Origin: Blastopirellula sediminis
GTDB lineage: Bacteria; Planctomycetota; Planctomycetia; Pirellulales; Pirellulaceae
Length of the DNA stretch: 64,000 nucleotides
NCBI RefSeq assembly: GCF_020966755.1
Contig: NZ_JAJKFT010000010.1
Coordinates: 2,010,720 to 2,074,719, forward strand
Direction of reading: 5' to 3'
A model generated the notes under the pieces. The model was not told where the DNA came from and searched no databases. It saw only the letters and a list, made by a program, of their open reading frames with translations. The number at the start of each line of letters is the position of its first letter. The stretch's first letter is position 1. Of this stretch, positions 4,664 to 23,068 are shown piece after piece. A program made the translations under genes and the position numbers.

Positions 4664-5639
4664 GGGTCGCGCCGAGGTAGCTTGAACCGGTGCGCTCGAC
4701 AGGGGGTTCGCCGGTCAGGACCAACGTATTGCGATTGATCGCCGTCCAAACGAAGCCGGTTAAACGCTTGTCGTCCGGCTTTGTGATCATCAGCTTTCCG
4801 CCGCTCGCTTTGTAGATGCCGGCCATGTTTAGCTTCGGACGGACAAGCTTGAATTGGTCGTCGCCGGTCTCTTTGATGACGATCTGGTGCTCGGCGCCCA
4901 GGGGCAGCGTCATCAGCCACTGGCCTGCAAAGTCGAGCGGCTCTTTCGGCTTCCAGTCAAGCGAGAGCGATTCTTCCTGCTTCTTCGCTTTTACAACCTT
5001 CGGTTGTTTCGCTTCGGCGATCACCAGCGGTTTGGCCGGCGTCTTTTCGGCCCGATCGATTGCGGCGCTATTCTTATCGACGCGAATGTCGAGTCTTTCC
5101 AGGCGCTCAAGCAATTCCGGAACAAACTTCGGCGGCAGTTCGCTGGCGTTCGCGCGCTCGATCGCCGCGCTGTTCCGTTCGACTCGTTCGTTGATCTTCG
5201 TCAGACGCTCAAGCAACTCCGGAAGAAACTTTGGCGGCAGTTCGCTTGCCGCGGCACGGTCGATTGCGGCGCTGTTCTTTTCGACTCGTCCATGGATTCG
5301 CTGCAGGCCTTCCCGCAGATCCTCCATCACCTTGGGCGGAACCGTTTGAGACTGCGTGCGTTCAATTGCGGCGCTGTTCTGGTCAATGCGCATGTTGAGC
5401 TTCGCCATTCCTTCGAGCAGTTCCGCCATGACTTTCGGCGGAATCGCTTGCGACTGGGCGCGTTCGATTTCGGCGTTGTTTTTGTCGGTCTGAGCCTCGA
5501 CTCGTTCCAGCCTCGCTTCCAAGCGGCGGATCTGCGCGATCAGTCCGTCGATCAAGCCTTCGCCGGGCTCTTCGCCGCGTACCGGGGCCGTTAACGTAAG
5601 GGTCGATGCGCAGACAAGCGCGATCCAGAAGCGTGACAT
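4626..5639 (-). CDS. Secreted coiled-coil protein with 34-residue tandem repeats
   Basis: A 337-residue protein with a cleavable signal peptide (residues 1-22, ending APVRGEE). Residues 30-200 are a helical coiled coil built from repeats of exactly 34 residues (102 bases), of the form R[IV]-x-x-NSAAI[ED]R ... PPK ... ELLE-x-L. Three full copies, one divergent N-terminal copy and one partial C-terminal copy are visible, and the repetition is also obvious in the DNA. A Lys/Ala linker follows, then a C-terminal beta-rich domain (residues 245-330) beginning DFAGQWLMTLPLG, which looks like a small lipocalin- or META-like barrel. Possibly a periplasmic spacer or binding protein. No family name can be given with confidence. 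Confidence 0.7.
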   Translation of the reverse strand: MSRFWIALVCASTLTLTAPVRGEEPGEGLIDGLIAQIRRLEARLERVEAQTDKNNAEIERAQSQAIPPKVMAELLEGMAKLNMRIDQNSAAIERTQSQTVPPKVMEDLREGLQRIHGRVEKNSAAIDRAAASELPPKFLPELLERLTKINERVERNSAAIERANASELPPKFVPELLERLERLDIRVDKNSAAIDRAEKTPAKPLVIAEAKQPKVVKAKKQEESLSLDWKPKEPLDFAGQWLMTLPLGAEHQIVIKETGDDQFKLVRPKLNMAGIYKASGGKLMITKPDDKRLTGFVWTAINRNTLVLTGEPPVERTGSSYLGATLTRQIPSPGESQ

Positions 5640-10642: not shown

Positions 10643-12419
10643 GAAACTTGGTTGGATCGGCGTGCTGCTGATTGGGTTAGGAGGCTGTCGTCCCGGCGAA
10701 CCGCAGGTTACGCCCCCTCCGGCCAATACGACGATCTCGCAAGTCGAGATCGAGACCGAAAACGTCGCGGTCGAACCGATGCCGGTGGAAGAGCCGGTCG
10801 TCGCCGAAGCACCTGTCGAGCCTCCAATAGAAGTGCCTGAGGTCAAACGCCCAACCCCACAGAAGTTGCTGGTGATGGCCGATCGGCAGCCGCTGCTGTT
10901 GGACGTGTATCTTTGGATCGACGGACGGCCATTTGAGGAGGCGCTGCAAGTTCTTTCCGACAAGGTGCTCGCGATGGCCGACACCGACGGCGATGGGATC
11001 GCGACCTGGAACGAACTGGCCGACAACCCAAACTTCAATCGGGGGCAGTTCGGCAATCTCTCCTTTACGAAGCCGCAAGAGCGCGACCGACTGATCAAGT
11101 TGTACGACGTGAATCGCAACGGACGCGTCGACGCCGAAGAAACTCCTCGTCTGTTAACCCGCAATCGGGGAAAGGCTCGTGAGTTTTCGGTCGATCCTCG
11201 CGCCCATGCGTCGTTCCGGCATAGTCGGGAAGCGTCGAACATGTTGCGGGTGCTCGACCGCAATGGCGATCAGCGACTCTCGGCCGACGAGATCGCCGAC
11301 GCGACCAACGTCTTGAAGGCTCGTGACGCCGATGCCGACGGCATCATCTCCGCTGCCGAACTGGCGCCGCCGCGCAGCCCGATGATGGCGATGGGATCGG
11401 GGGACGATTGGCGCGGAGAGCAAGGAGCGTACGTGCTGGATGAGAATACGTCGTGGCCGAACGTCCTGCGTTCGATCGAGTCGATTTACAACTTTGGCTC
11501 GTCGGTGGAAGTGGCGGCCCTGTTCGGCGAAAACTCGCCGTTGGTGATGGTCGACGAGGATGAAGATGGCTATCTCGAGTATCGCGAGATTCCACGAATT
11601 GCCGAGTTACCTCCCAGCGCCACTTTAGAGATTCGCTATGGCGCCCGGAAGGAAGGGGAAGAGTTCTACGCATTGACGCTGGCCGACGATGCGAAGTGCA
11701 CGCTCCAGGAGGCCGGGTACGTCGAGAGCAAGGCGCTGGTCGACGGCAATGGCCGGCTGTTGATTCATGCGGTCGACGATATTGAAGTCGCCGGATGGAT
11801 GGGCGATGGTTATGTGGAGTCGTCCCTCAGCGGCTTGCGAGCCAAGAACGCACTCGCGCTTAACGACAGAGATAAGAACAACTATCTCGACAAGGATGAA
11901 TTTCCGCCGAACCTGGCGGAGCGGCTCACTTTTGAGATGGTCGACTCGGATGAAGATGACCAGGTCACCCTCGAGGAGCTACAGGCCGCGCTGACTAACA
12001 TCGACCTGGTGAAGGCCTGCCAGATCCGGGTGCAACGGACGGCGGTGATCGATCCGCTGTTTGCGGCGCTGGACGAAAACGGAGATGGTCGATTGGCGAT
12101 TCGGGAATTGCGGATCGCGAGCGAGAAACTGCGGCAGCTCGACGCCAATGGAGACCAGGAGGTCGATCTGGAGGAATTCCCCGCGTTTGGTGGTCTGGTC
12201 GTCTATCGGGGGGGAGATCGGGACGGTTCGACGATGCCGGCTCGCGTCGTTCCGACGCCGATCGAGGGGCGGCCCGATTGGCATCAGGGGATGGACTTCA
12301 ACGGGGATGGGGACGTCAGTTGGACCGAGTTTTTAGGGAGCCGGAGCCAATTTGACGAGCTCGATCGGGACGGCGACGGGCTGTTGTCGGTGGTTGAAGT
12401 GGCGACCAAGTCGATCTAA
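10626..12419 (+). CDS. Lipoprotein with about eleven EF-hand-like calcium loops
   Basis: A 597-residue protein starting at GTG 10626, inside the end of the DUF1501 gene. A lipobox (GLGGC at about residue 20) shows it is a lipoprotein. A Pro/Glu/Val-rich linker follows. The rest carries about eleven loops of EF-hand type, among them DTDGDGIATWNEL, DVNRNGRVDAEE, DRNGDQRLSADE, DEDEDGYLEYRE, DENGDGRLAIRE and DRDGDGLLSVVEV. Most keep Asp at positions 1, 3 and 5, Gly at 6 and Glu at 12, so real calcium binding is likely. It probably forms a membrane-bound calcium-dependent scaffold working with the two upstream exported proteins. Calcium binding is inferred, not shown. Confidence 0.85.
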   Translation: MLCSPKKLGWIGVLLIGLGGCRPGEPQVTPPPANTTISQVEIETENVAVEPMPVEEPVVAEAPVEPPIEVPEVKRPTPQKLLVMADRQPLLLDVYLWIDGRPFEEALQVLSDKVLAMADTDGDGIATWNELADNPNFNRGQFGNLSFTKPQERDRLIKLYDVNRNGRVDAEETPRLLTRNRGKAREFSVDPRAHASFRHSREASNMLRVLDRNGDQRLSADEIADATNVLKARDADADGIISAAELAPPRSPMMAMGSGDDWRGEQGAYVLDENTSWPNVLRSIESIYNFGSSVEVAALFGENSPLVMVDEDEDGYLEYREIPRIAELPPSATLEIRYGARKEGEEFYALTLADDAKCTLQEAGYVESKALVDGNGRLLIHAVDDIEVAGWMGDGYVESSLSGLRAKNALALNDRDKNNYLDKDEFPPNLAERLTFEMVDSDEDDQVTLEELQAALTNIDLVKACQIRVQRTAVIDPLFAALDENGDGRLAIRELRIASEKLRQLDANGDQEVDLEEFPAFGGLVVYRGGDRDGSTMPARVVPTPIEGRPDWHQGMDFNGDGDVSWTEFLGSRSQFDELDRDGDGLLSVVEVATKSI

Positions 12420-12571
12420 ACTTTCCTTCCTTCGGAAGACGCCCCCCGTGGGCCGTTTGCACACGGATTCTTCATAAAATATTCTTCGAGGATTTACGAG
12501 TTCTTTTCGTATTCTCCAAGCATTAGTGATTGCCGCATATTGGGTTTCGCCAAAGTTGCGGAAGAACGTTT

Positions 12572-12609
12572 TTAACGCTTGTTCACAGCTTCTTAATTTA
12601 ATCTTAATA
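12572..12609 (+). promoter_or_regulatory. Candidate Pho box upstream of pstS
   Basis: Four TT-starting hexamers are spaced 10, 11 and 11 bases apart: TTAACG at 12572, TTCACA at 12582, TTAATT at 12593 and TTAATA at 12604, the last two being the core of repeated CTTAAT. Helical-turn-spaced direct repeats of this type are how PhoB/PhoP winged-helix regulators bind DNA. The array lies about 100 bases before pstS in an otherwise AT-rich stretch, and an OmpR-type regulator closes the same locus. The intergenic region 12420-12710 holds no gene. Confidence 0.55.
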
Positions 12610-12710
12610 ATCGTGCGTCATGATAGCGGGACGCTTTTTCGCGTCCGCCGCAGCCGGTAGGGGCCGGGGGGAATTAAAACTGTGACATTTTTCAGAGGGA
12701 TGCACCCACT

Positions 12711-13679
12711 ATGAACCGCTGCCGGAACATCTTTATGGTCGCCGCCTTGGCGGTAGCCGCTCCGCTTGCCGCCTCGGCGCAAGTCCAAGTTGACTCCGCT
12801 TTGCCGTCCTACAAACCAGTTCAAGGCGTCAACGGAAACATCAGCAGCATGGGTTCCGACACCATGAACAACCTGATGACCTTGTGGGCCGAAGGTTTCC
12901 AGAAGTTCTATCCGGGCGTCACCATCGAAATCGAAGGCAAGGGTTCGTCGACCGCTCCGGCCGCGCTGACCAAGGGGACCGCCACCTTCGGTCCGATGAG
13001 CCGCCCGATGAAGGAATCGGAAATCGACGCTTTTGAAAAGGCCTACGGTTACAAGCCGACCCAGCTCGGCACCTCGATCGATATGCTGGCCGTCTTCGTT
13101 CACAAAGACAACCCGGTGAAGGGGCTGTCGTTGGAACAACTCGACTCGATCTTCAGCAGCACCCGCAAAGGGGGCGCGAAAGATGACGTCACCACTTGGG
13201 GTCAGCTCGGTCTGGAAGGGGCTTGGGCCAGCCGCGCGATCAGCCTGTACGGTCGTAACTCGGCTTCGGGCACCTACGGTTACTTCAAGGAAAAGGCGCT
13301 GTTCGATGGCGACTACAAGTCGTCGGTGAAGGAACAGCCGGGCAGCTCGGCCGTGATCCAAGGGGTCGCCAACGACGTCGCCGCCATCGGCTACAGCGGC
13401 ATCGGCTACAAGACCGCCGCCGTTCGCGTCGTCCCGCTCTCCAAGACCGGCGACAAATTCGTCGAACCGTCGCTGGAAACGGTTAGCAGCTACCCGCTGT
13501 CGCGTTTCCTCTACCTGAGCGTCAATCGCAAGCCGAACGAACAGCTTGATCCGCTTCGCTTGGAGTTCATCAAGTACGTCTTCAGCAAGGAAGGCCAGGA
13601 AGCGGTCGTGAAAGACGGCTACTTGCCGCTGACCGCCAAGCAGGCCCAGCGTCAGCTCGACATGATTCTGAAGAACTAG
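12711..13679 (+). CDS. pstS: Phosphate-binding protein of the Pst ABC transporter
   Basis: A 322-residue periplasmic binding protein with a Sec signal peptide (residues 1-23, cleavage near ASA-QVQ). It captures inorganic phosphate for the PstCAB permease. Family motifs are present: GSDTMNNLMTLWAEGF, the phosphate-loop region GKGSSTAPAAL, and YGRNSASGTYGYF, which supplies backbone and Ser/Arg contacts to phosphate. It is the first gene of the locus, preceded by a Pho-box-like array and followed by a strong hairpin, so it can be transcribed in excess over the membrane components. Identification is secure from sequence and context. Confidence 0.95.
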   Translation: MNRCRNIFMVAALAVAAPLAASAQVQVDSALPSYKPVQGVNGNISSMGSDTMNNLMTLWAEGFQKFYPGVTIEIEGKGSSTAPAALTKGTATFGPMSRPMKESEIDAFEKAYGYKPTQLGTSIDMLAVFVHKDNPVKGLSLEQLDSIFSSTRKGGAKDDVTTWGQLGLEGAWASRAISLYGRNSASGTYGYFKEKALFDGDYKSSVKEQPGSSAVIQGVANDVAAIGYSGIGYKTAAVRVVPLSKTGDKFVEPSLETVSSYPLSRFLYLSVNRKPNEQLDPLRLEFIKYVFSKEGQEAVVKDGYLPLTAKQAQRQLDMILKN

Positions 13680-13703
13680 TCGCGGACGCTTATTGATATT
13701 CGC

Positions 13704-13741
13704 CGCGTCGCCTCTTCGGTTCGAAGGGGCGGCGCGTTTTT
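13704..13741 (+). terminator. Intrinsic terminator or attenuator after pstS
   Basis: A 15-pair stem with two G-T wobbles (CGCGTCGCCTCTTCG against CGAAGGGGCGGCGCG), loop GTT, followed by TTTTT. It lies between pstS and pstC. Leaky termination here would give more binding protein than permease, as in other pst operons. Confidence 0.85.
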
Positions 13742-13794
13742 CTGTTTCCAGCGTCTCGGTTTGAACGAGACTCCCGCCGGACTAGCCCAGCCCC

Positions 13795-16485
13795 ATGTCG
13801 CAAGACGAAAAGAGTTTCTCCGGCCGCCGACGTCGCATGAAGACGCGCTGGACGGTCGCCGCCGCCGACGTTCTGTCGGAGTTTGTGATTACGGTTGGCG
13901 GTATCGGCACGATCGTCGCCGTCATGGCGGTCTTCGTCGTTCTGGTCGCTCGCGTCGCGCCGCTCGGATTGCCGGCTTCGATCACTGGCGAAGTTTCGCG
14001 CGAGACCCACTGGGGTTCAGCCAAGCCGGTTCATCTGGCGGTTGATGAATACCGCACGATCGGCTGGGTCTTGTTTGACGACGGTCGGCTCGAATCGTTT
14101 CGGGTCGACAACGGCGAAAAGCTGGGCGAAACCCGGCTTTTCCAAGACAAAAAACTCTCCGCCATTTCGACCTCGGTCGGTCGCGGCGGTCTGCTGCTTG
14201 GCTTTCTGGACGGCACGATTCAGTTCGCCGACGTCCACTTCAAGACGTCGTTTATCGACGCGGTCAACGCGCCCGAAGAATTTCATGGCATGAAGCCGGG
14301 CGAACTGGCGACCTACAAGCCGAGCGACGACGAAACCGGCGTCATCGAACTGACTTCGCAAGGTCAGTACCGCTTGCAGGTACTTGAGTCGAGCGCGATG
14401 GAGCCGCTGAAGGTTTCCGACAAGGCGATCCTGATGCTTGACCATGTGCCGGAAGCGGCCAGCGGCGGCAACTCGGTCAGCGTCTCAAAGGACGATCGCA
14501 AGTACGTCAGCTATTCCGCCGACGGGAAGCTGCGTTACGGCCTGGTGCTGGAAGAGGAGGACTTCCTCTCTGGCGACATCACGCTGAAGAACGACATGAT
14601 CGAGCTGGACATCGCCGAGATTCAAGGGGAGCGTCCGCAGTTCCTGTTGCAAACAGCGCGCGGCAACGACATTCTGCTCGCGTGGAAATCGGGGCAAATG
14701 GTTCGCTTCGTTCGTGAAAACGGAGAGAACGGCTTTCGTCTAGCGCCGGCCGAAAAGATCGACCTCCTCCCCGATACCGACGCCGAGTTGACCGTGTGCG
14801 ACTTCATTCTCGGTCGCGAGACGGTCTTTGTTGGCGATAGCGACGGTGGAGCGAGCGGTTGGTTCCTGGTTCGCGCCGCCGAAACCGACGATCCCGAAAT
14901 TCAAGCCCGTAAGACGAGCGACGGATTCACGTTGGCTCGCGTGCACGTGTTGCAATCGGCGCCGGGCGAGAAGGTCGTTTCGATGCGAGCCTCGGAGCGG
15001 AGCCGCATGTTGGCGGTCGGTTACGAATCGGGCCGTTTTCGCGTTTACCAGATGACGACCGAGCTGCTGGTGCTCGATCGCCATTTGCCTGGCGACGTTC
15101 CGGTCGTCAGCGCCATGATCACGCCGAAGGATGACGGTCTGTTGGTCGAGTCGACCAAGGGGCTTTATCTCTGGAACTTCGATCCTCGACATCCCGAGAT
15201 CAGCGTCGCCGCGGCGATCTTGCCGGTCTGGTACGAAGGGTACCCGAAACCGCGGCAGATCTGGCAAAGCTCGTCGGCCGGCGTCGAACCGGAAATGAAG
15301 CTCGGCCTGTATCCGCTGATCTCCGGTACGCTCAAGGCGACCTTCTACTCGATGTTGTTCGGTGCGCCGATCGCTTTGTTGGCGGCGATCTATACCAGCG
15401 AATTCACTACGTACAAAGTTCGGACGGTCGTCAAACCGACGGTCGAAATGATGGCGAGCCTGCCGAGCGTCGTGCTCGGATTTTTGGCGGCGATCGTTTT
15501 CGCTCCGGTGGTCGAATCGTTCTTGCCCTTTTTCCTGACGACGATCGTCGCCGTCCCGCTCACGTTTATCACGGCGGCGATGCTGTGGCAGTTGATGCCG
15601 CGGCGAATCGGCTTGATCCTGGAAGAATGGCGACTGTGGTTTATGGTGCCGGCGCTCTTTTTGGGGCTGTTCATTTCTTACCAGTTGGCTCCGTGGGTCG
15701 AACATCTCGCGTTCGACGGCAATGTGAAGTCATGGCTCGACGGAAAGGGGAACGGCGTCGTCGGCTGGGTGATGCTGATGATTCCGCTTGCAGGGATGCT
15801 CGCCTTCTTCGTGAACGGCGCCTTCATCAATCCCTATCTCCGTATGCACGCCATCAAGTGGACCCGTTCGCAGTTCGCGCTGATGAGCCTCATTAAGTTC
15901 GCCGCGCTGGTCCTGCTGGCGTTCCTGTTGGCGTGGGGCGTTTCCTCGCTTCTGTACTGGTTGCCGACCTGGTTCGGCGGTTCGCCGTTTGATCCCCGGG
16001 GAACCTTCGTCGACAGCTACGCCCAGCGTAACTCGTTCGTCGTCGGTTTCGTGATGGGATTCGCGGTGATTCCGATCATTTACACGATCGCCGACGATGC
16101 ATTGGCGACAGTGCCGAAGCATCTTCGTTCCGCTTCGCTCGGCTGCGGCGCCACACCGTGGCAGACGACGGTTCGCGTGGTGATTCCGACCGCCATGAGC
16201 GGGCTCTTCTCGGCATTGATGATTGGTCTGGGTCGCGTGGTCGGCGAGACGATGATCGTGCTGATGGCCGGCGGTAATACGCCGGTGACGGATTGGAATA
16301 TTTTCAGCGGGTTCCGCACGCTCAGTGCGACCATTGCGATCGAACTGCCCGAAGCGGTAGAGAACAGCACCCACTTTCGCATGTTGTTCGCTGCAGCCCT
16401 GGTGCTGTTCGTCATCACGTTTTTGATCAATACCGCGGCCGAAATTGTGCGGCTGCGTTTCCGTAAACGAGCTTACCAACTATGA
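13795..16485 (+). CDS. pstC: Phosphate ABC transporter permease PstC, oversized form
   Basis: An 896-residue protein whose C-terminal part, from about residue 500 (PLISGTLKATFYSMLFGAPIA), is a PstC-type permease. The EAA loop region reads LATVPKHLRSASLGCGATPW and the final helices include GRVVGETMIVLMAGG. Before it is a membrane helix at residues 29-52 and then about 440 residues that are probably extracytoplasmic, beta-rich and propeller-like. The permease itself is interrupted after RRIGLILEEW by roughly 170 residues with additional hydrophobic helices. Classical PstC is about 300 residues; some gammaproteobacterial PstC proteins have shorter extensions. It overlaps pstA by four bases (ATGA). 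Start ATG 13795 lacks a good SD. Confidence 0.9.
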   Translation: MSQDEKSFSGRRRRMKTRWTVAAADVLSEFVITVGGIGTIVAVMAVFVVLVARVAPLGLPASITGEVSRETHWGSAKPVHLAVDEYRTIGWVLFDDGRLESFRVDNGEKLGETRLFQDKKLSAISTSVGRGGLLLGFLDGTIQFADVHFKTSFIDAVNAPEEFHGMKPGELATYKPSDDETGVIELTSQGQYRLQVLESSAMEPLKVSDKAILMLDHVPEAASGGNSVSVSKDDRKYVSYSADGKLRYGLVLEEEDFLSGDITLKNDMIELDIAEIQGERPQFLLQTARGNDILLAWKSGQMVRFVRENGENGFRLAPAEKIDLLPDTDAELTVCDFILGRETVFVGDSDGGASGWFLVRAAETDDPEIQARKTSDGFTLARVHVLQSAPGEKVVSMRASERSRMLAVGYESGRFRVYQMTTELLVLDRHLPGDVPVVSAMITPKDDGLLVESTKGLYLWNFDPRHPEISVAAAILPVWYEGYPKPRQIWQSSSAGVEPEMKLGLYPLISGTLKATFYSMLFGAPIALLAAIYTSEFTTYKVRTVVKPTVEMMASLPSVVLGFLAAIVFAPVVESFLPFFLTTIVAVPLTFITAAMLWQLMPRRIGLILEEWRLWFMVPALFLGLFISYQLAPWVEHLAFDGNVKSWLDGKGNGVVGWVMLMIPLAGMLAFFVNGAFINPYLRMHAIKWTRSQFALMSLIKFAALVLLAFLLAWGVSSLLYWLPTWFGGSPFDPRGTFVDSYAQRNSFVVGFVMGFAVIPIIYTIADDALATVPKHLRSASLGCGATPWQTTVRVVIPTAMSGLFSALMIGLGRVVGETMIVLMAGGNTPVTDWNIFSGFRTLSATIAIELPEAVENSTHFRMLFAAALVLFVITFLINTAAEIVRLRFRKRAYQL

Positions 16486-19022
16486 CCTCGCCTGCTCAGA
16501 ACGACGCCGCCGCCGCTCCGCGCGAGAAACGAGGCCACGTTTCCAAACCGGGACTCTCGCTCCTTGCGCAGGGTGAGCCGATGGTCTGGCTGACCGGCGG
16601 ATCGCTCGCCCTTTGTTTGCTGATGATCTTCGGCCTGTTGTCGCTCGTCATTTACAACGGCATGCGCACCTTCTGGCCAGGGCGGCTCTACCAGGTCGAG
16701 ACGGTCGACGGAGCGATTTATCTCGGTGAAGCGGCCGGCGTTGAACGCTTCGAGTTGACCGAGCAATTGATCAACTCGTTTCCGTCGGAGCTGAAAAAGG
16801 CTCGCGAGAAAGCGCTGGAGAAGTTCGAAGCGGCCGGCAGCGTGCCGGTCGAAGTCGAACGGCGTCAGTATCGTACCGGCAACTTCGACATCATCTCGAA
16901 CTTCGACCGGGAAGGTACTCACTACCATACCGTGAACGAGTTCGAGCTGGTTCAGCCCGAAGCCGAATTGCCCGAATGGGCGATGGTGATCGAGCGGCTC
17001 TCGTGGGGACGTTTCTACGGGATGCCGGTCGAATTCAAACTCGACCATCTGCGACCGATCTCCGCCGACGAAGAGCAGCTGAACGACATCGTCCTGCTGA
17101 TTCAAAGCAACATGTATCGCATCAGCGACGCCGATCAATCGGCTCAGCTGAAAGAAGCCCTCGCGCCGGTCGAAGCGGAACTGGCCAAAACGCGGGCCGC
17201 TAACATCGATGCGTTCATCGCCGAAAACAAATCGCTCGAAGGCGAATTGCGGGCGAAGCTGAAGTCGGGCGAGGAGAAGCCGTTGGCCGACGTCAAATCG
17301 GCCGAAGAGAACGTCGTCAGCGTCGTTCAAGCGTCGGTCGGTCCGGAACAAGCGTGGGACAAATACAACGAGTTCCATGACGAAGTGATCAGCCGTTCGC
17401 ATCGTCGCAAAGAGATCGAAGAGTTCGAAGTCGGCGAGGTTAACAGCGAAGAAGAAAACGCCCGGTTGTCGCTGCGGGACGAAGAAATCAACCACCCCGG
17501 CGTCTTCGTCGTCGAATTGGCGAACGAACTGGCGCGTCTGCAAGGTCAGGTCGCGACGCTCGACGAGATCGGTGAAAAGAACCAGGCTACCCTCAAGCAG
17601 ATCGAAAAGCGAAGCGGCGCTGATTCGCCGCTCGCCAAGTTCTCCCAGGAGATCGTCAAGGGGCTCGCGACCGATCTGGCCGATCAGCAGTCGCAGCCCA
17701 AGAAGCGCATCGCGGAAATCAAGGAATTGATCGCGGGCATGCCGCCGTCGACGCAAGGGGCGGTCGACAACTTCCTGAAGATTCGAGAAGAGTCGACGCA
17801 GCGGACCGTCGCGCTGCAGCAGAAGATCAATCAACTGAATGAAGAGAACGCTCGCTACGTCCTGCACATGCAGACGGCGCAGAAGATCGACAAGGATATC
17901 CCGCTGTCGGAAATCGTCCTCGCCTTTCCCGCCAACCGGTTGAGTCTGGCGGGTCAGCTCGGCGTTTACATGTCGCGCTGGGGCGAGTTTCTGATGGACG
18001 ATCCCCGCGAAGCGAACTCCGAAGGGGGCGTCTTCCCGGCGATTTGGGGAACGGTTGCGATGACGATGATCATGTCGGTCATTGTGGTGCCGTTCGGCGT
18101 GCTGGCCGCTCTCTATCTCCGCGAATTCGCCAAGCCCGGCCCGATCGTCAGCGCCATTCGCATCAGCATCAACAACCTGGCCGGCGTGCCGAGCATCGTC
18201 TTCGGCGTGTTTGGCTTCGCCTTTTTGATCGGCAACGTCGGACGCTTTATTGACGGCGGTCCGCGGAACGCCGACTTGCCGGTGATGTCGTCCAACCGTT
18301 GGTATTTGTTGCTGATGGTCTTGGCGGCGACGGCGTGCGGCGCGTTCATGATGTCGATGTACGCGGTCAGCAATCGTCGGCAATTGACCGGCGGTCGAAA
18401 CCTCTGGCTCGGCAAGTTCGCGCTGCTCCTCTGGATCGTGGCGACCGGCGCGTTCGTAACCGCGCTGGCGACGACTCCGGAGTTCAACGGCTTCTTCACG
18501 TCGCATCTTCCGAACCCGGTGTTCGGTAAAGGGTGTTTGGCGTGGGCCAGCATTACGCTCGCTTTGTTGACGCTGCCGGTCGTGATCGTTGCGACGGAAG
18601 AGGCTCTTGCTGCGGTTCCCAACTCGTTGCGTGAAGGGTCGTACGGCTGCGGCGCCAGCAAGTGGCAAACCATTTGGCGCATCGTCCTGCCGCACGCTCT
18701 GCCGGGGATCATGACCGGCATGATTCTGGCGATGGCGCGCGGCGCCGGCGAAGTCGCTCCGTTGATGCTGGTCGGCGTGTTGAAACTGGCGCCGGAACTG
18801 CCGATCGACTTTTCGCCGCCGTTTTTGCACTTCGATCGCAGCTTTATGCATCTGGGTTTTCATATTTACGACCTTGGTTTTCAAAGTCAGAACAGCGAAG
18901 CGGCCAAGCCGATGGTTTACACCACCACTTTGCTGCTGATCGCCGTCATCGCAATGTTGAACTTGTCGGCGATCTGGCTTCGCGCTCGTCTACGACGACG
19001 ATTCCAACCGGGACAGTTTTAG
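16482..19022 (+). CDS. pstA: Phosphate ABC transporter permease PstA, oversized form with coiled coil
   Basis: An 846-residue protein. One helix (about 36-60) is followed by some 450 residues, probably extracytoplasmic, that are charged and largely helical, with long coiled-coil stretches (for example 215-330 and 360-470). The permease domain starts near residue 520 (WGTVAMTMIMSVIVVPFGVL) and carries the PstA EAA loop LAAVPNSLREGSYGCGASKW and the GAGEVAPLML motif. Classical PstA is about 290 residues. The gene starts at an ATGA overlap with pstC. The partner extension in PstC suggests the two large domains contact each other or PstS. It shuttles phosphate across the membrane with PstB. Confidence 0.9.
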   Translation: MTSPAQNDAAAAPREKRGHVSKPGLSLLAQGEPMVWLTGGSLALCLLMIFGLLSLVIYNGMRTFWPGRLYQVETVDGAIYLGEAAGVERFELTEQLINSFPSELKKAREKALEKFEAAGSVPVEVERRQYRTGNFDIISNFDREGTHYHTVNEFELVQPEAELPEWAMVIERLSWGRFYGMPVEFKLDHLRPISADEEQLNDIVLLIQSNMYRISDADQSAQLKEALAPVEAELAKTRAANIDAFIAENKSLEGELRAKLKSGEEKPLADVKSAEENVVSVVQASVGPEQAWDKYNEFHDEVISRSHRRKEIEEFEVGEVNSEEENARLSLRDEEINHPGVFVVELANELARLQGQVATLDEIGEKNQATLKQIEKRSGADSPLAKFSQEIVKGLATDLADQQSQPKKRIAEIKELIAGMPPSTQGAVDNFLKIREESTQRTVALQQKINQLNEENARYVLHMQTAQKIDKDIPLSEIVLAFPANRLSLAGQLGVYMSRWGEFLMDDPREANSEGGVFPAIWGTVAMTMIMSVIVVPFGVLAALYLREFAKPGPIVSAIRISINNLAGVPSIVFGVFGFAFLIGNVGRFIDGGPRNADLPVMSSNRWYLLLMVLAATACGAFMMSMYAVSNRRQLTGGRNLWLGKFALLLWIVATGAFVTALATTPEFNGFFTSHLPNPVFGKGCLAWASITLALLTLPVVIVATEEALAAVPNSLREGSYGCGASKWQTIWRIVLPHALPGIMTGMILAMARGAGEVAPLMLVGVLKLAPELPIDFSPPFLHFDRSFMHLGFHIYDLGFQSQNSEAAKPMVYTTTLLLIAVIAMLNLSAIWLRARLRRRFQPGQF

Positions 19023-19049
19023 TGATCCGAGCGGAGATCTAGCGGTACA

Positions 19050-19964
19050 ATGACGACGCAACGCGAAATTGAGAAGATTCCTCAAACGAGAAACAGCGTG
19101 AACGAGATTACCTCTCCACAGCAGCCCGCCGAAGGGAAACAGAACCGGTTGGAATTGATCGCCCAGGGGCATCATTTCGACTCGGTCATCCACGACGCGG
19201 TCAAACGCGAAGAGTGCGTGCTTGAGATCAAAGACTTCAATCTGTGGTACGGCGAGAAGCAAGCGCTGTTTAACGTCAACATGCCGGTTCCCAAGGGACA
19301 GGTCACCGCGCTCGTCGGTCCGTCCGGTTGCGGCAAGTCGACGCTGCTCCGCTGCGTGAACCGGATGAACGACCTGATCGACACGGTTCGCATCCAGGGA
19401 GACATCGTGCTGAACGGCGATTCGATCTGCGACGCCGGCGTCGACGTGATCGAACTTCGCAAGCGGATGGGGATGGTGTTTCAAAAGCCGAATCCTTTTC
19501 CGATGAGCATCTTTGAAAACGTCGTCTATCCGCTCCGGATTGACGGCGAACGGAATCGCGGCGTTTTGGAAGGGGTTTGCGAACATAGCCTCAAAGGCGC
19601 CGCCATCTGGGATGAAGTGAAAGATCGTCTGCATGAGAGCGGGCTCAGCCTCTCCGGCGGTCAGCAGCAACGTTTGTGCATCGCGCGGGCGATCGCCAGC
19701 GAACCGGAAGTGCTGCTGCTCGACGAACCGTGCTCGGCTCTCGACCCGATCGCAACCAGCAAGATCGAAGACCTGATCCGCGAACTTCGGGGCGAGTACT
19801 CGATCTTGATCGTCACCCACAACATGCAACAAGCGTCGCGCATCAGCGACTACACCGCGTTCATGTACTTGGGGCGTCTGGTCGAATTTGGACCGACCGT
19901 CGACATCTTCACCAATCCGAAATTGACCGAAACGAACGCTTACGTGACCGGACGGTTCGGCTAG
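19050..19964 (+). CDS. pstB: Phosphate ABC transporter ATP-binding protein
   Basis: A 304-residue ATPase that powers phosphate import. Walker A is GPSGCGKST, the signature is [14 protein letters not shown], and Walker B with the catalytic Glu is [12 protein letters not shown], followed by the H-loop histidine in VTHNM. The stretch [19 protein letters not shown] is typical of PstB. About 50 extra residues precede the usual N-terminus, which is longer than the normal 250-260 residue family; a later start is possible, but no better internal start signal is obvious. It lies 27 bases after pstA in the same operon. Confidence 0.95.
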
Positions 19965-20022
19965 TCGAACCTCCGGCGGTACTCTTATTCGTCTGCTAAC
20001 GCGCCATCATCAGGGGAAAGTG

Positions 20023-21201
20023 ATGTCTCGAATCGTTGGAACTTTGGTTTGTTTCACGCTGATCGCCGTCGCCGGCTATCCGGCTATCGCCGACGAGCGC
20101 CGTTCGGAGCAGCACGCTAAATTCGCCGCCGACTTCTGGAACTACCTGGATGGGAAGTTCGACAAGTGGGAAGCGATTGGGGAACTCCCGAGTTCGGTTC
20201 CCGCTCCGCACGTTTCCGGCGAGTCGAAAACGTACGCCAATCCGGCCGCTTTGAAGAACCTCAAAGACCCGGGCTATGGTTCGATCTTCGTCGTCGAGCA
20301 CCTGCAGGATGGCAAGTCGATCGGTTTGACCGCCTGCTTCCGCGCCAAAGCGGGTATCGACGTGAAGCAGAACGACTGGTACTGGCTCTACTATCTGCCG
20401 GCCGGCGAAGCGGTGAAGACTTCGGCCGACAAAGCCGCGTTCGACAAGCCGGGCTTCGTCACCTTTGAAGACGACGGCCGCTTGTGGGTCTTTAACCTGA
20501 ACAATCCGAACCTGGCTGACTTCCTGAGCGTTGGCGAGTTGACCAAGCAGGTGATTCGTCCCGGCGTTGGTCCGTCGGCGATGACGCTGAAGTCGGATGA
20601 AATGGAAACGATTCTCGGTTACCTCGCCGCCAAGCCGGGCTTTGTGACGGCGATCGAAGATGGCCGCGTGTGGGTCTTGAAGGAAGGTAGCGACGCGGCG
20701 AAGGAGTTCCTCGCCTCGGGCGAACCGGCCAAGCAAGTGATCCGCCCCGGCGTTGGTCCGCTCGGCACGACGCTGAAGTCGGACGACGCCGCTACGATCG
20801 CCGCCTACCGTTACGCGAAGCCGGGCTTCCAAGCGGCGGTTGACGGCGACGGTCGCGTCTGGGTCTTTCCGGCCGACAGCGACGCGTGGAAGGAATATGT
20901 CGCCAGCGGCGAACCGGCCGCGCACGTCACCAAGATCGGCGTCGGCCCGAATCGCGAAACGCTTAAGACGCGCGACGCCGGCGTGATCGAAGCTTACCTC
21001 GTCGCGCAGCCGGGCTACGTGACCAAAATCATTGATGGCCGTCTGTGGGTGGTGCGGGTCGACTCGGCCGACCTGAAGGAATTCGCCGCCAGCCACGATT
21101 TGGCCAAGCATGTCACCAAGATCGGCGCCGGCCCGCTGGGGATGACGATCAAAAGTCCCGATAGCGAGACGATCGACTCGTACATGCGAAACTTCCGCTA
21201 A
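20023..21201 (+). CDS. Exported repeat protein with cytochrome-P460-like N-terminal domain, in the pst operon
   Basis: A 392-residue protein with a signal peptide (about 1-23, ending PAIADE). Residues 25-135 resemble the cytochrome P460 fold (PHVSGESKTYANPAA, GSIFVVEH, KQNDWYWLYYLPAGE), but there is no CxxCH, so covalent haem is not expected. From residue 142 come four repeats of 62-63 residues with consensus [KQ]PG[FY]-x-DGR[VL]WV-KEF-SGE-AK-V-G[VA]GP-T[LI]K; their DNA copies start at 20446, 20632, 20818 and 21007. ATG 20023 has AGGGGAAA just upstream. It sits between pstB and phoU, so a role in phosphate sensing or capture is inferred from position only. The family was not otherwise recognised. 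Confidence 0.75.
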   Translation: MSRIVGTLVCFTLIAVAGYPAIADERRSEQHAKFAADFWNYLDGKFDKWEAIGELPSSVPAPHVSGESKTYANPAALKNLKDPGYGSIFVVEHLQDGKSIGLTACFRAKAGIDVKQNDWYWLYYLPAGEAVKTSADKAAFDKPGFVTFEDDGRLWVFNLNNPNLADFLSVGELTKQVIRPGVGPSAMTLKSDEMETILGYLAAKPGFVTAIEDGRVWVLKEGSDAAKEFLASGEPAKQVIRPGVGPLGTTLKSDDAATIAAYRYAKPGFQAAVDGDGRVWVFPADSDAWKEYVASGEPAAHVTKIGVGPNRETLKTRDAGVIEAYLVAQPGYVTKIIDGRLWVVRVDSADLKEFAASHDLAKHVTKIGAGPLGMTIKSPDSETIDSYMRNFR

Positions 21202-21212
21202 TTTGCGGAAGT
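21191..21212 (+). other. Hairpin across the stop codon of the exported repeat protein gene
   Basis: An 8-pair stem (ACTTCCGC against GCGGAAGT) with a six-base loop containing the stop codon TAA at 21199-21201. No T run follows, so it is not a terminator. It could stabilise the message end or slow ribosomes before phoU. Confidence 0.4.
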
Positions 21213-21255
21213 CCAGGGCGGATGCGTTTTCAACGCAAACAAGGATTGAAATGGT

Positions 21256-21924
21256 ATGACGGTTCATTTTGAAAAACAACTCGATCAGCTTCGGCGGCAA
21301 CTGGTGACGCTCGGCGCGATGGTCGAAGAGCACGTCAGGTTGGCGATTCGCGCCGCGGAAGAGCAGGATCGCGCGCTCGCCCAAGAGGCGATCGATCGTG
21401 ACGATGAGGTCGACGCCTTGCAAATGGAGATCTCGGAAGAGTCGCTCCACCTAGTGGCGTTGTTTCAGCCGGTCGCTTCCGACCTGCGGTTTGTGATCTC
21501 GGTTCAAACGGTTATCAACGAGTTGGAGCGGATCGGCGACCACGCTCACGACATCGGCCAAGGGGTGTTGCGTCTGATCGACTCTGGCGCTCACTTCGAC
21601 TTGCCGCCGCTGTTGCAAACCTCGAAGGAAGCGTCGATCGAGATGCTGCGGCAAAGTCTCGATGCGCTGTTGGATCGCGATGCGGCGAAGGCCCGCGACG
21701 TGATCCTCGCCGACGACACGGTCGATCAGTCGCATCGCGGCATGTATGACTGGTTCAAGAACGGCGTTCGCCAGCGTCCGGACGATCTCGACTGGATGAT
21801 GGAGATGCTGACGATTTCGCGGCATGTCGAACGGATCGCCGATCATGCGACCAACATCGCAGAAACGGTGGTCTACCTGGTCGAAGGCGAACTCGTTCGC
21901 CGCGGCGGCGACCGGGCGCCGTAG
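21256..21924 (+). CDS. phoU: Phosphate signalling protein PhoU
   Basis: A 222-residue all-helical protein with the two PhoU half-repeats. The first carries EQDRALAQEAIDRDDEVDALQMEI and IGDHAHDIGQGVLRL; the second, in the C-terminal half, carries RHVERIADHATNIAETVVYLVEG. The acidic and histidine residues of the E/DxxxD metal-binding motifs are present in both halves. PhoU links Pst transporter activity to Pho regulon signalling and limits phosphate uptake. ATG 21256 lies 54 bases after the exported repeat protein, in the same operon. In well-studied systems PhoU acts through the kinase PhoR, but no histidine kinase is encoded in this window. Confidence 0.95.
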   Translation: MTVHFEKQLDQLRRQLVTLGAMVEEHVRLAIRAAEEQDRALAQEAIDRDDEVDALQMEISEESLHLVALFQPVASDLRFVISVQTVINELERIGDHAHDIGQGVLRLIDSGAHFDLPPLLQTSKEASIEMLRQSLDALLDRDAAKARDVILADDTVDQSHRGMYDWFKNGVRQRPDDLDWMMEMLTISRHVERIADHATNIAETVVYLVEGELVRRGGDRAP

Positions 21925-21979
21925 TCGTCCCACAGCGTTTTGGCGTTTTCGTTTCTGGTCCCCATCGTAGCGTCCCGCG

Positions 21980-22693
21980 ATGAACAACCGGCTTGTGCTC
22001 ATTATCGGCCGTCAGGGCAGGCTCAGCTCCGCCTTGGCTGATAACCTGCGACAATCAGGTTGTGAGGTGCGCACTGCAATTGATTCGGACGATGGCCTGG
22101 AGCAGGCGATCGCCCATTCGCCCGACATCGTCCTGGTTGGGCATCACTCGCCCGAGTCGTTCGATATGTGTCGCCGCATCAGCAGTCGGATGCGGCCCGA
22201 GCAGCTCCCTGCGTTTCTGGTGACGCCGGGCGTTGGGACCAGCGAAGCCGAAGAGGGAGAGCCGGAGTCGATCGATTCGTTGTTGGCCGAGACCCTGGCG
22301 CTCGACTTGCTCGCTCAAGGCGTGAAGACGCTGCTGAGTCGCGCTCGTCAGGCAGGACAAGACGACGTCGTCCTCGAACATCATGGGCTCCGTCTTGATC
22401 GCACGCGCTACGTGGCTGAACTCAAAGGGGAGTCGATCGGCGCGACGCCGACCGAGTTTCGGTTGCTCTGGACGTTGATGGCGAAGCCGGGACATGTCTT
22501 TTCGCGGCACGACTTGTTTGAGGCGTGTCACGCCGAGCATGAAGGTGAGCCTTCGGCCCAGTCGCGAGCGATCGACGTTCATGTAAAGACGATCCGCCGG
22601 AAGTTGGCGGAACAAGCAAACCTTATAGAGACCATTCGAGGGGTAGGCTACCGATTTCGGGAGCCGGTTTGGGGCGTTTCTCCATTCGAGTAG
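21980..22693 (+). CDS. OmpR/PhoB-type transcription regulator with degenerate receiver
   Basis: A 237-residue regulator. Residues 135-228 form an intact winged-helix output domain (GATPTEFRLLWTLMAKPGHVFSR, AIDVHVKTIRRKL, ETIRGVGYRF). Residues 4-120 align with a receiver, but the acidic pair is replaced (LVLIIGRQ), the phospho-acceptor position is G54 in PDIVLVGHH, and the conserved Lys is absent. It therefore cannot be phosphorylated in the usual way. Its place after phoU suggests it is the PhoB counterpart controlling the pst operon, possibly by protein contact with PhoU or ligand binding. The start ATG at 21980 is 55 bases after phoU. No phoR follows within the window. Confidence 0.85.
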   Translation: MNNRLVLIIGRQGRLSSALADNLRQSGCEVRTAIDSDDGLEQAIAHSPDIVLVGHHSPESFDMCRRISSRMRPEQLPAFLVTPGVGTSEAEEGEPESIDSLLAETLALDLLAQGVKTLLSRARQAGQDDVVLEHHGLRLDRTRYVAELKGESIGATPTEFRLLWTLMAKPGHVFSRHDLFEACHAEHEGEPSAQSRAIDVHVKTIRRKLAEQANLIETIRGVGYRFREPVWGVSPFE

Positions 22694-23068
22694 GGTTTTT
22701 GTCGTCGTAAGTGACGATATATCTAGTGTTTGCGTTTTGTCATGAGTTAATGAAGAGTTCGTCCTTAGCTCTTTAAATTACCCAACCCGGAACTTCAACT
22801 GGGTGGCTGGCCCTTTCTCCAAATGGGTAGGTTGCGTCCGGTCTTAACTTAGCGACAATAAGTTCCTGCGATCTTTCCCAGCTTCGCGGACGAGGGATCA
22901 AAGGACTCCGAGTCTTAGAAGGAACGACGCCGCTAGCTCTGCTATCATACCGGTAGCGACTGACGGTGATACTGGCGTCAACGAAGACGCCAGCGTGTGT
23001 GAAACGGATTTCCACTGCCGCGGATTTTACGCTTCGCCACGACGGTATCAGGAGGGACGAAGTTTGAC
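22694..23068. other. Intergenic region
   Basis: There are 375 bases between the Pho-type regulator and a small gene. The first 90 bases are AT-rich and could hold a terminator-free end or a promoter; no clear hairpin with a T run was found. AGGAGGG at 23050-23056 serves the small gene at 23069. No other gene was seen. Confidence 0.45.

Follow-up and report, generated by a model that had tools for sequence, protein, structure and literature searches.

An exported P460-like repeat protein encoded in the pst operon of Blastopirellula sediminis, a probable accessory of an enlarged phosphate importer

The DNA analysed here, referred to as the window, is a stretch of 64,000 nucleotides from Blastopirellula sediminis (contig NZ_JAJKFT010000010.1, positions 2,010,720 to 2,074,719). 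It carries a phosphate-uptake operon in which NCBIfam matches identify pstS, pstC, pstA, pstB, phoU and a phoB-like gene in this order, with one additional gene, here called X, inserted between pstB and phoU. The genes are located as follows.

12711 to 13679, + strand: pstS (TIGR02136, 250.5 bits)
13795 to 16485, + strand: enlarged pstC, 896 amino acids (TIGR02138, 195.6 bits, just under the cut-off of 196.45)
16482 to 19022, + strand: enlarged pstA, 846 amino acids (TIGR00974, 233 bits)
19050 to 19964, + strand: pstB (TIGR00972, 396 bits, over the NCBIfam cut-off)
20023 to 21201, + strand: gene X, encoding an exported protein of 392 amino acids and probably an accessory gene of the pst operon
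21256 to 21924, + strand: phoU (TIGR02135, 184.8 bits, over the NCBIfam cut-off)
21980 to 22693, + strand: gene for a PhoB-like regulator with a receiver domain lacking the usual phospho-acceptor aspartate (TIGR02154, 96 bits against a cut-off of 296.2)

The reading frame of X runs from an ATG at 20023 to a TAA at 21199-21201 and represents a real gene. It is separated by 58 nt from pstB and by 54 nt from phoU, which agrees with the placement between these two genes given in the earlier note on this DNA. X was found in all four genomes of the genus that were examined. Compared with its counterpart in Blastopirellula marina, it shows a dN of 0.13 and a dS of 1.1 (NG86), and judged from these substitution rates X is under purifying selection. 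There are no paralogues of X in its own genome at E ≤ 1, plasmid sequences gave no match, and in a scan of contigs that was confined to close relatives X was found only in B. marina.

A promoter scan of positions 12400-23000 returned a single promoter-like site on the + strand, at 12582-12611 ahead of pstS. In total the scan found two such sites against 2.1 expected, so it proves nothing either way. No Pho box was found ahead of pstS, and the two matches elsewhere in the window are at chance level. A strong terminator-like hairpin (15 pairs, 11 of them G-C) lies between pstS and pstC at 13704-13736 and perhaps sets the output of pstS above that of the rest of the operon. At a distance from these genes, positions 5100-5289 hold a tandem duplication with a 102-base unit in 1.9 copies.

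Within the X protein we distinguished a signal peptide, an N-terminal domain, which we call the head, and four repeats.

20023 to 20094, + strand: signal peptide, approximately residues 1-24 (hydropathy highest at residues 4-22; cleavage site judged by eye)
20095 to 20445, + strand: cytochrome P460 / c'-beta-like domain without CxxCH, residues 25-141 (hhalign, Foldseek)
20446 to 20631, + strand: repeat 1, residues 142-203
20632 to 20817, + strand: repeat 2, residues 204-265
20818 to 21006, + strand: repeat 3, residues 266-328
21007 to 21198, + strand: repeat 4, residues 329-392

The hydrophobic N-terminal peptide is present as proposed earlier, and it is the only hydrophobic segment of the protein. 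It is 42% identical to the corresponding segment in B. marina, against 74% or more for the rest of X. That the following domain would resemble cytochrome P460 without its heme-binding motif was also supported. A profile of seven heads aligned by hhalign with six CxxCH-bearing planctomycete proteins, all of which match PF16694. The probability was 99.5% (E 3.1e-22), and the 100 aligned columns do not reach the heme motif. Single sequences gave weaker signals: the window protein had no Pfam match over the cut-off and did not match PF16694, and when the heads were scanned one by one PF16694 was matched by three of the seven, with a best E of 0.05 for a query set that contained one wrong residue. 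Other weak matches were each obtained with one of the seven heads (Amidase_6, E 0.0031; DUF7183, E 0.022; LigB, E 0.079). Searching PDB sequences with the seven-head profile placed a P460-domain chain at E 0.53, below unrelated chains. A model of full-length X, based on a two-sequence alignment, had a pLDDT of only 45.3, with values up to 78 in the head region (in blocks of ten), and for this reason only the head region was used, and cautiously. The top Foldseek hits of this low-confidence model, 7zqz and 9hqt, are both cytochrome c'-beta structures (probability 0.99, E 0.09 and 0.12). No other fold emerged for the domain: its profile is P460-like, and the structural match is supportive but weak. 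In our reading the head is a domain of P460 fold whose covalent heme was lost.

The CxxCH motif is absent from X of the window and from the 19 relatives checked with it, 20 proteins in total; X as a heme protein was rejected on this ground. By PF16694, no P460 protein occurs elsewhere in the same genome. In other planctomycetes CxxCH-bearing P460-like proteins are present at seven loci (L064, L065, L012, L040, L042, L044 and L045), and no pst genes were found within the 12 kb examined around the first two. Among 47 repeat proteins examined, a P460-like head occurs in 11, all from the order to which the window belongs, and the other 36 are headless, with one to four repeats each. A simple pattern search found a lipobox-like cysteine before the repeats in 15 of the 36 headless proteins, which is only a hint since the pattern also matches inside some heads. 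The head could in principle bind heme or a small ligand non-covalently, giving X a redox or NO-linked function, as passages of a 2025 review (PMC11928373) describe heme binding, and in some cases NO binding, for known members of the related P460 and cytochrome c'-beta group. The missing motif, an aligned segment that stops short of it, and the lack of a head in most repeat proteins all argue against such a function, and we regard it as very improbable.

For the repeats, the earlier note had described four near-identical units of 62-63 residues with a DNA period of 186, 186 and 189 nt. Number, length and period were confirmed, but the units are not near-identical: they share 40-58% protein identity, and Tandem Repeats Finder at its default score did not report them. 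Identity to the repeat at the corresponding position in B. marina is 84-89%, against 32-55% to repeats at other positions, which indicates that the array is old. In a 32-row profile of the repeat, R12, G42 and P43 are invariant and G3, G11, W14 and T47 nearly so. An AlphaFold model of two repeats, built from six stretches from the window and B. marina, reached a pLDDT of 87.7 and a pTM of 0.77 in the best of five models, whose mean pLDDT ranged from 48.9 to 87.7. Each unit is predicted to fold as strand-strand-helix-strand-strand-helix, i.e., with four strands and two helices. Foldseek gave no hit to this model below E 1 in the PDB or below 0.25 among viral models, and no solved fold was matched.

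Sequence searches likewise yielded no convincing match for the module in Pfam, NCBIfam or PDB sequences. With the repeat profile, lectin chains were found in PDB sequences down to E 6e-6, but the alignments covered no more than 16-17 residues and no single stretch passed alone. A beta-propeller identity, suggested by weak Vgb, Reg_prop and lectin matches, was discarded on account of the two-repeat model, which is alpha/beta. An NCBIfam acylphosphatase match (E 0.0014; 18.8 bits, cut-off 119) was followed by a profile comparison with 12 family sequences, which gave probabilities of 3.2% and 18.4% and left that identity unsupported. There was also no match of X to the binding-protein family of the PstS type, whereas PstS itself matches PF12849.

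The conserved residues of the module are relevant for what X might bind. Of 74 aligned repeats, 73 retain the GR-motif arginine, and a lysine or arginine follows the glycine-rich GxGPxGxT stretch in 65. Together these residues form a plausible, putative anion site, which would suit a free periplasmic scavenger or buffer of phosphate or phospho-compounds that is produced with Pst upon a starvation signal and never touches the transporter. The charge of the protein points the other way. Mature X is acidic, with a pI of 5.65, which speaks against a simple polyanion trap, and all four repeats of the window protein carry a net negative charge. We return to free scavenging below, where the genomic linkage is considered.

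Both permease subunits of the window operon are unusually long. In PstC the first predicted transmembrane segment covers residues 34-52 and the next 515-533, leaving about 460 residues in between; in PstA these segments are at 39-57 and 525-543, with about 465 residues between them. In permeases of this kind the loop connecting the first two transmembrane segments (TM1 and TM2) is usually periplasmic. Residues 384-471 of PstC gave weak WD40 and propeller matches (E 0.007 and 0.05), which hint that its extra part may resemble a propeller.

The distribution of the module was examined with a repeat profile (A1) at a threshold of E ≤ 0.001 in 392 Planctomycetota genomes, and the repeat was found in 41 of them. 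The surroundings of all 41 loci were inspected by tblastn with the Pst proteins of the window. In 35 of the 41 genomes the repeat gene lies in or beside a pst operon, and at E ≤ 1e-6 this holds for 32 of 34. The linked genes are located directly after pstB (23 cases), after pstA (one case, G292) or beside pstS (11 cases, nine upstream on the same strand and two divergent). The earlier note had asked whether homologues always lie beside pstB or phoU; most are indeed pst-linked, but 11 adjoin pstS and six are unlinked. Three of these six showed no pst gene over the stretch seen (G099, 14 kb; G212 and G310, 12 kb each), and the other three showed none on their contigs (G138, 14.6 kb; G237, 10.0 kb; G398, 3.1 kb). 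Two of them, G138 and G237, are strong relatives; elsewhere in its genome the former possesses an enlarged pst operon without X. The ORF lists around unlinked relatives at L060, L099 and L100 offered no further clue. One further genome (G247) has an additional, unlinked single-repeat gene.

A more divergent profile, A7, is related to A1 (98.3%, E 2.6e-14) and matches 50 of the 392 genomes, 32 of which belong to the 41 found with A1. For 13 of the 18 genomes matched by A7 only, the loci were examined together with flanks of no more than 1.5 kb. The gene adjoins pstS in G354 and G386, a PstC match lies about 6 kb away or less on the contig in G290 and G337, and the remaining nine show no pst link. 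This suggests that the tight family is bound to pst, and its outer relatives less so.

Linkage also holds in the order of the window organism. Using the whole X protein at E ≤ 1e-15, we found full-type X in 17 of 296 genomes, in 16 directly after pstB on the same strand, so that homologues are not mostly separate from phosphate genes in either survey. The 17th (G683) has an X that is 5'-truncated, lacking about the first 100 residues, and lies between an oppositely oriented ORF and a second pst operon of ordinary size (L215). A search of this whole genome, which is 91% complete, found only PstC of ordinary size; a congener (G005) has enlarged PstC and an intact X. The truncated gene appears to be what stayed behind when this genome lost the enlarged operon. 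The congener also carries, downstream of X, a second pst operon of ordinary size with two adjacent pstB genes (L050, 1778-7511). In genus g58, six genomes have X and, among the genomes listed, at least two (G379 and G510) lack it. The latter two encode enlarged PstC with no match to X, and in G379 the pstB match and the start of phoU are 112 nt apart. By gene content X is, it appears, dispensable even within one genus.

The relationship with the permeases was examined in 37 repeat-bearing operons, comprising 32 of the 35 linked cases and five close relatives; G175, G320 and G325 were left out as they have no permease match on the stretch. The PstC reading frame has at least 754 residues in 36 of the 37 operons, the exception (463 residues) being cut by a contig end, and that of PstA has at least 533 residues in all 36 operons where it is present on the stretch. 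As a proxy for enlarged PstC we used a match of at least 400 bits, below which an enlarged PstC matched in two pieces (G409) falls. The repeat occurs in 23 of the 65 genomes with such a match and in 18 of the 327 others (Fisher p 6e-10, ignoring kinship). The A1 repeat is absent from the other 42 of the 65, two of which (G162, G183) have an A7 match. For 20 of these 42 genomes the pst region was examined and no repeat ORF was found, with the sequence of one (G392) ending 159 bases after pstB. The connection with oversized PstC and PstA suggested in the earlier note is thus one-way: X predicts enlarged permeases (36/37), but enlarged permeases do not predict X (23/65), and X is not essential to them.

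These data also bear on what X does. A free scavenger would show the same operon linkage, but the tie to operons with enlarged PstC and PstA is not something it predicts, and we consider free scavenging unlikely. Gene X could also be carried in the operon for co-regulation alone. Another possibility is sensing: from the periplasm, X would signal phosphate to the transporter and thereby to PhoU and the neighboring regulator. Its location between pstB and phoU in 15 operons, including that of the window, fits this role, as does the regulator, whose lack of the phospho-acceptor aspartate means that signaling may be unusual here. The receiver domain matches Response_reg at E 0.095, and the loss of the aspartate was deduced from an alignment. 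This loss is shared by the genus, four g58 genomes and G004; the regulators at L050, L063 and L106 keep the residue. For E. coli, passages of PMC5775613 propose that the conformation of the transporter is sensed by PhoR and PhoU. However, the regulator without the aspartate also occurs in G379, where X is absent, which makes the sensor possible but less likely. Furthermore, X has no membrane segment of its own and would need to signal through PstC/PstA, and 11 of the 35 linked relatives adjoin pstS instead. Overall, a sensory role is quite unlikely.

The reading we prefer, to which we assign a probability of roughly 0.6, is that X assists the enlarged Pst importer of Planctomycetota from the periplasm, as an optional accessory component without a redox function. 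Computed support comes from the place of X in the operon, its export signal and repeat architecture, the lost heme motif, linkage, co-occurrence with enlarged permeases and constraint. In particular, the recurrence of X relatives beside the enlarged importer suggests that X is probably an overlooked accessory part of it. As such, X would be produced from the pst operon, exported, and act outside the inner membrane without covalent heme. It would share the periplasm with the giant TM1-TM2 loops of PstC and PstA, and its repeat array might dock on these loops or on PstS. Docked X could then help to capture, hold or present phosphate, or it could steady the complex. In the window's order the P460-like head would probably serve as a dimerising or placing module, and in some repeat-only relatives a lipid anchor may have the same role. 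Published P460-fold structures are mostly homodimers, according to passages of the review cited above (PMC11928373). Contact and phosphate binding are less certain than the accessory role: the chances that X contacts the transporter are about even, and direct binding of phosphate is doubtful. More speculatively, the module of about 62 residues, which occurs across Planctomycetota, might be dedicated to enlarged Pst importers. Present in one to four copies, in some proteins on a lipid anchor and in others on a heme-less P460 head, it would build an external array for handling phosphate, one that feeds the transporter or gates it via the giant PstC and PstA loops. We consider this generalization tentative and rather doubtful.

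Pst is a much studied bacterial importer that serves as a model for phosphate sensing, and the Planctomycetota have an unusual cell plan. If the accessory role is correct, a recurrent exported component tied to giant-loop permeases would point to a second design of Pst in this phylum. X would also represent a heme-less use of the P460 fold, and the family libraries searched offer nothing convincing for its repeat module. In the literature, titles and openings of abstracts revealed nothing on such a Pst component.

Compared with known systems, the Pst operon and the P460 fold are known in kind, and the X component and its repeat module are the parts without a useful match in Pfam, NCBIfam or PDB sequences. 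Beta-propellers such as Vgb lyase and Photorhabdus lectins share a short GRLWVF-like stretch with the X repeats, but the repeat is modeled with two helices and four strands and the fold matches are at E 1 or worse. With acylphosphatase (PF00708) the likeness is limited to a beta-hairpin and helix of about 28 residues, and the profile alignment leaves the conserved VQGVGFR segment uncovered. The resemblance to cytochrome P460 / c'-beta (PF16694) extends over the 100 N-terminal residues aligned by profile with CxxCH-bearing proteins and includes the two best structural matches. This is a fold that passages of the 2025 review (PMC11928373) call notably distinct from any other protein family. X differs in lacking CxxCH and in having repeats in place of the part that bears the heme motif; the heme-lysine cross-link of P460 proper is moot for a protein without heme. 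Like the PstSCAB-PhoU operon, the window has pstS, pstC, pstA, pstB, phoU and a PhoB-like gene in order. It differs in PstC and PstA, each of which is extended by about 460 residues between predicted TM1 and TM2 (896 and 846 amino acids, against PRK models of 319 and 295), and in the presence of the extra gene X.
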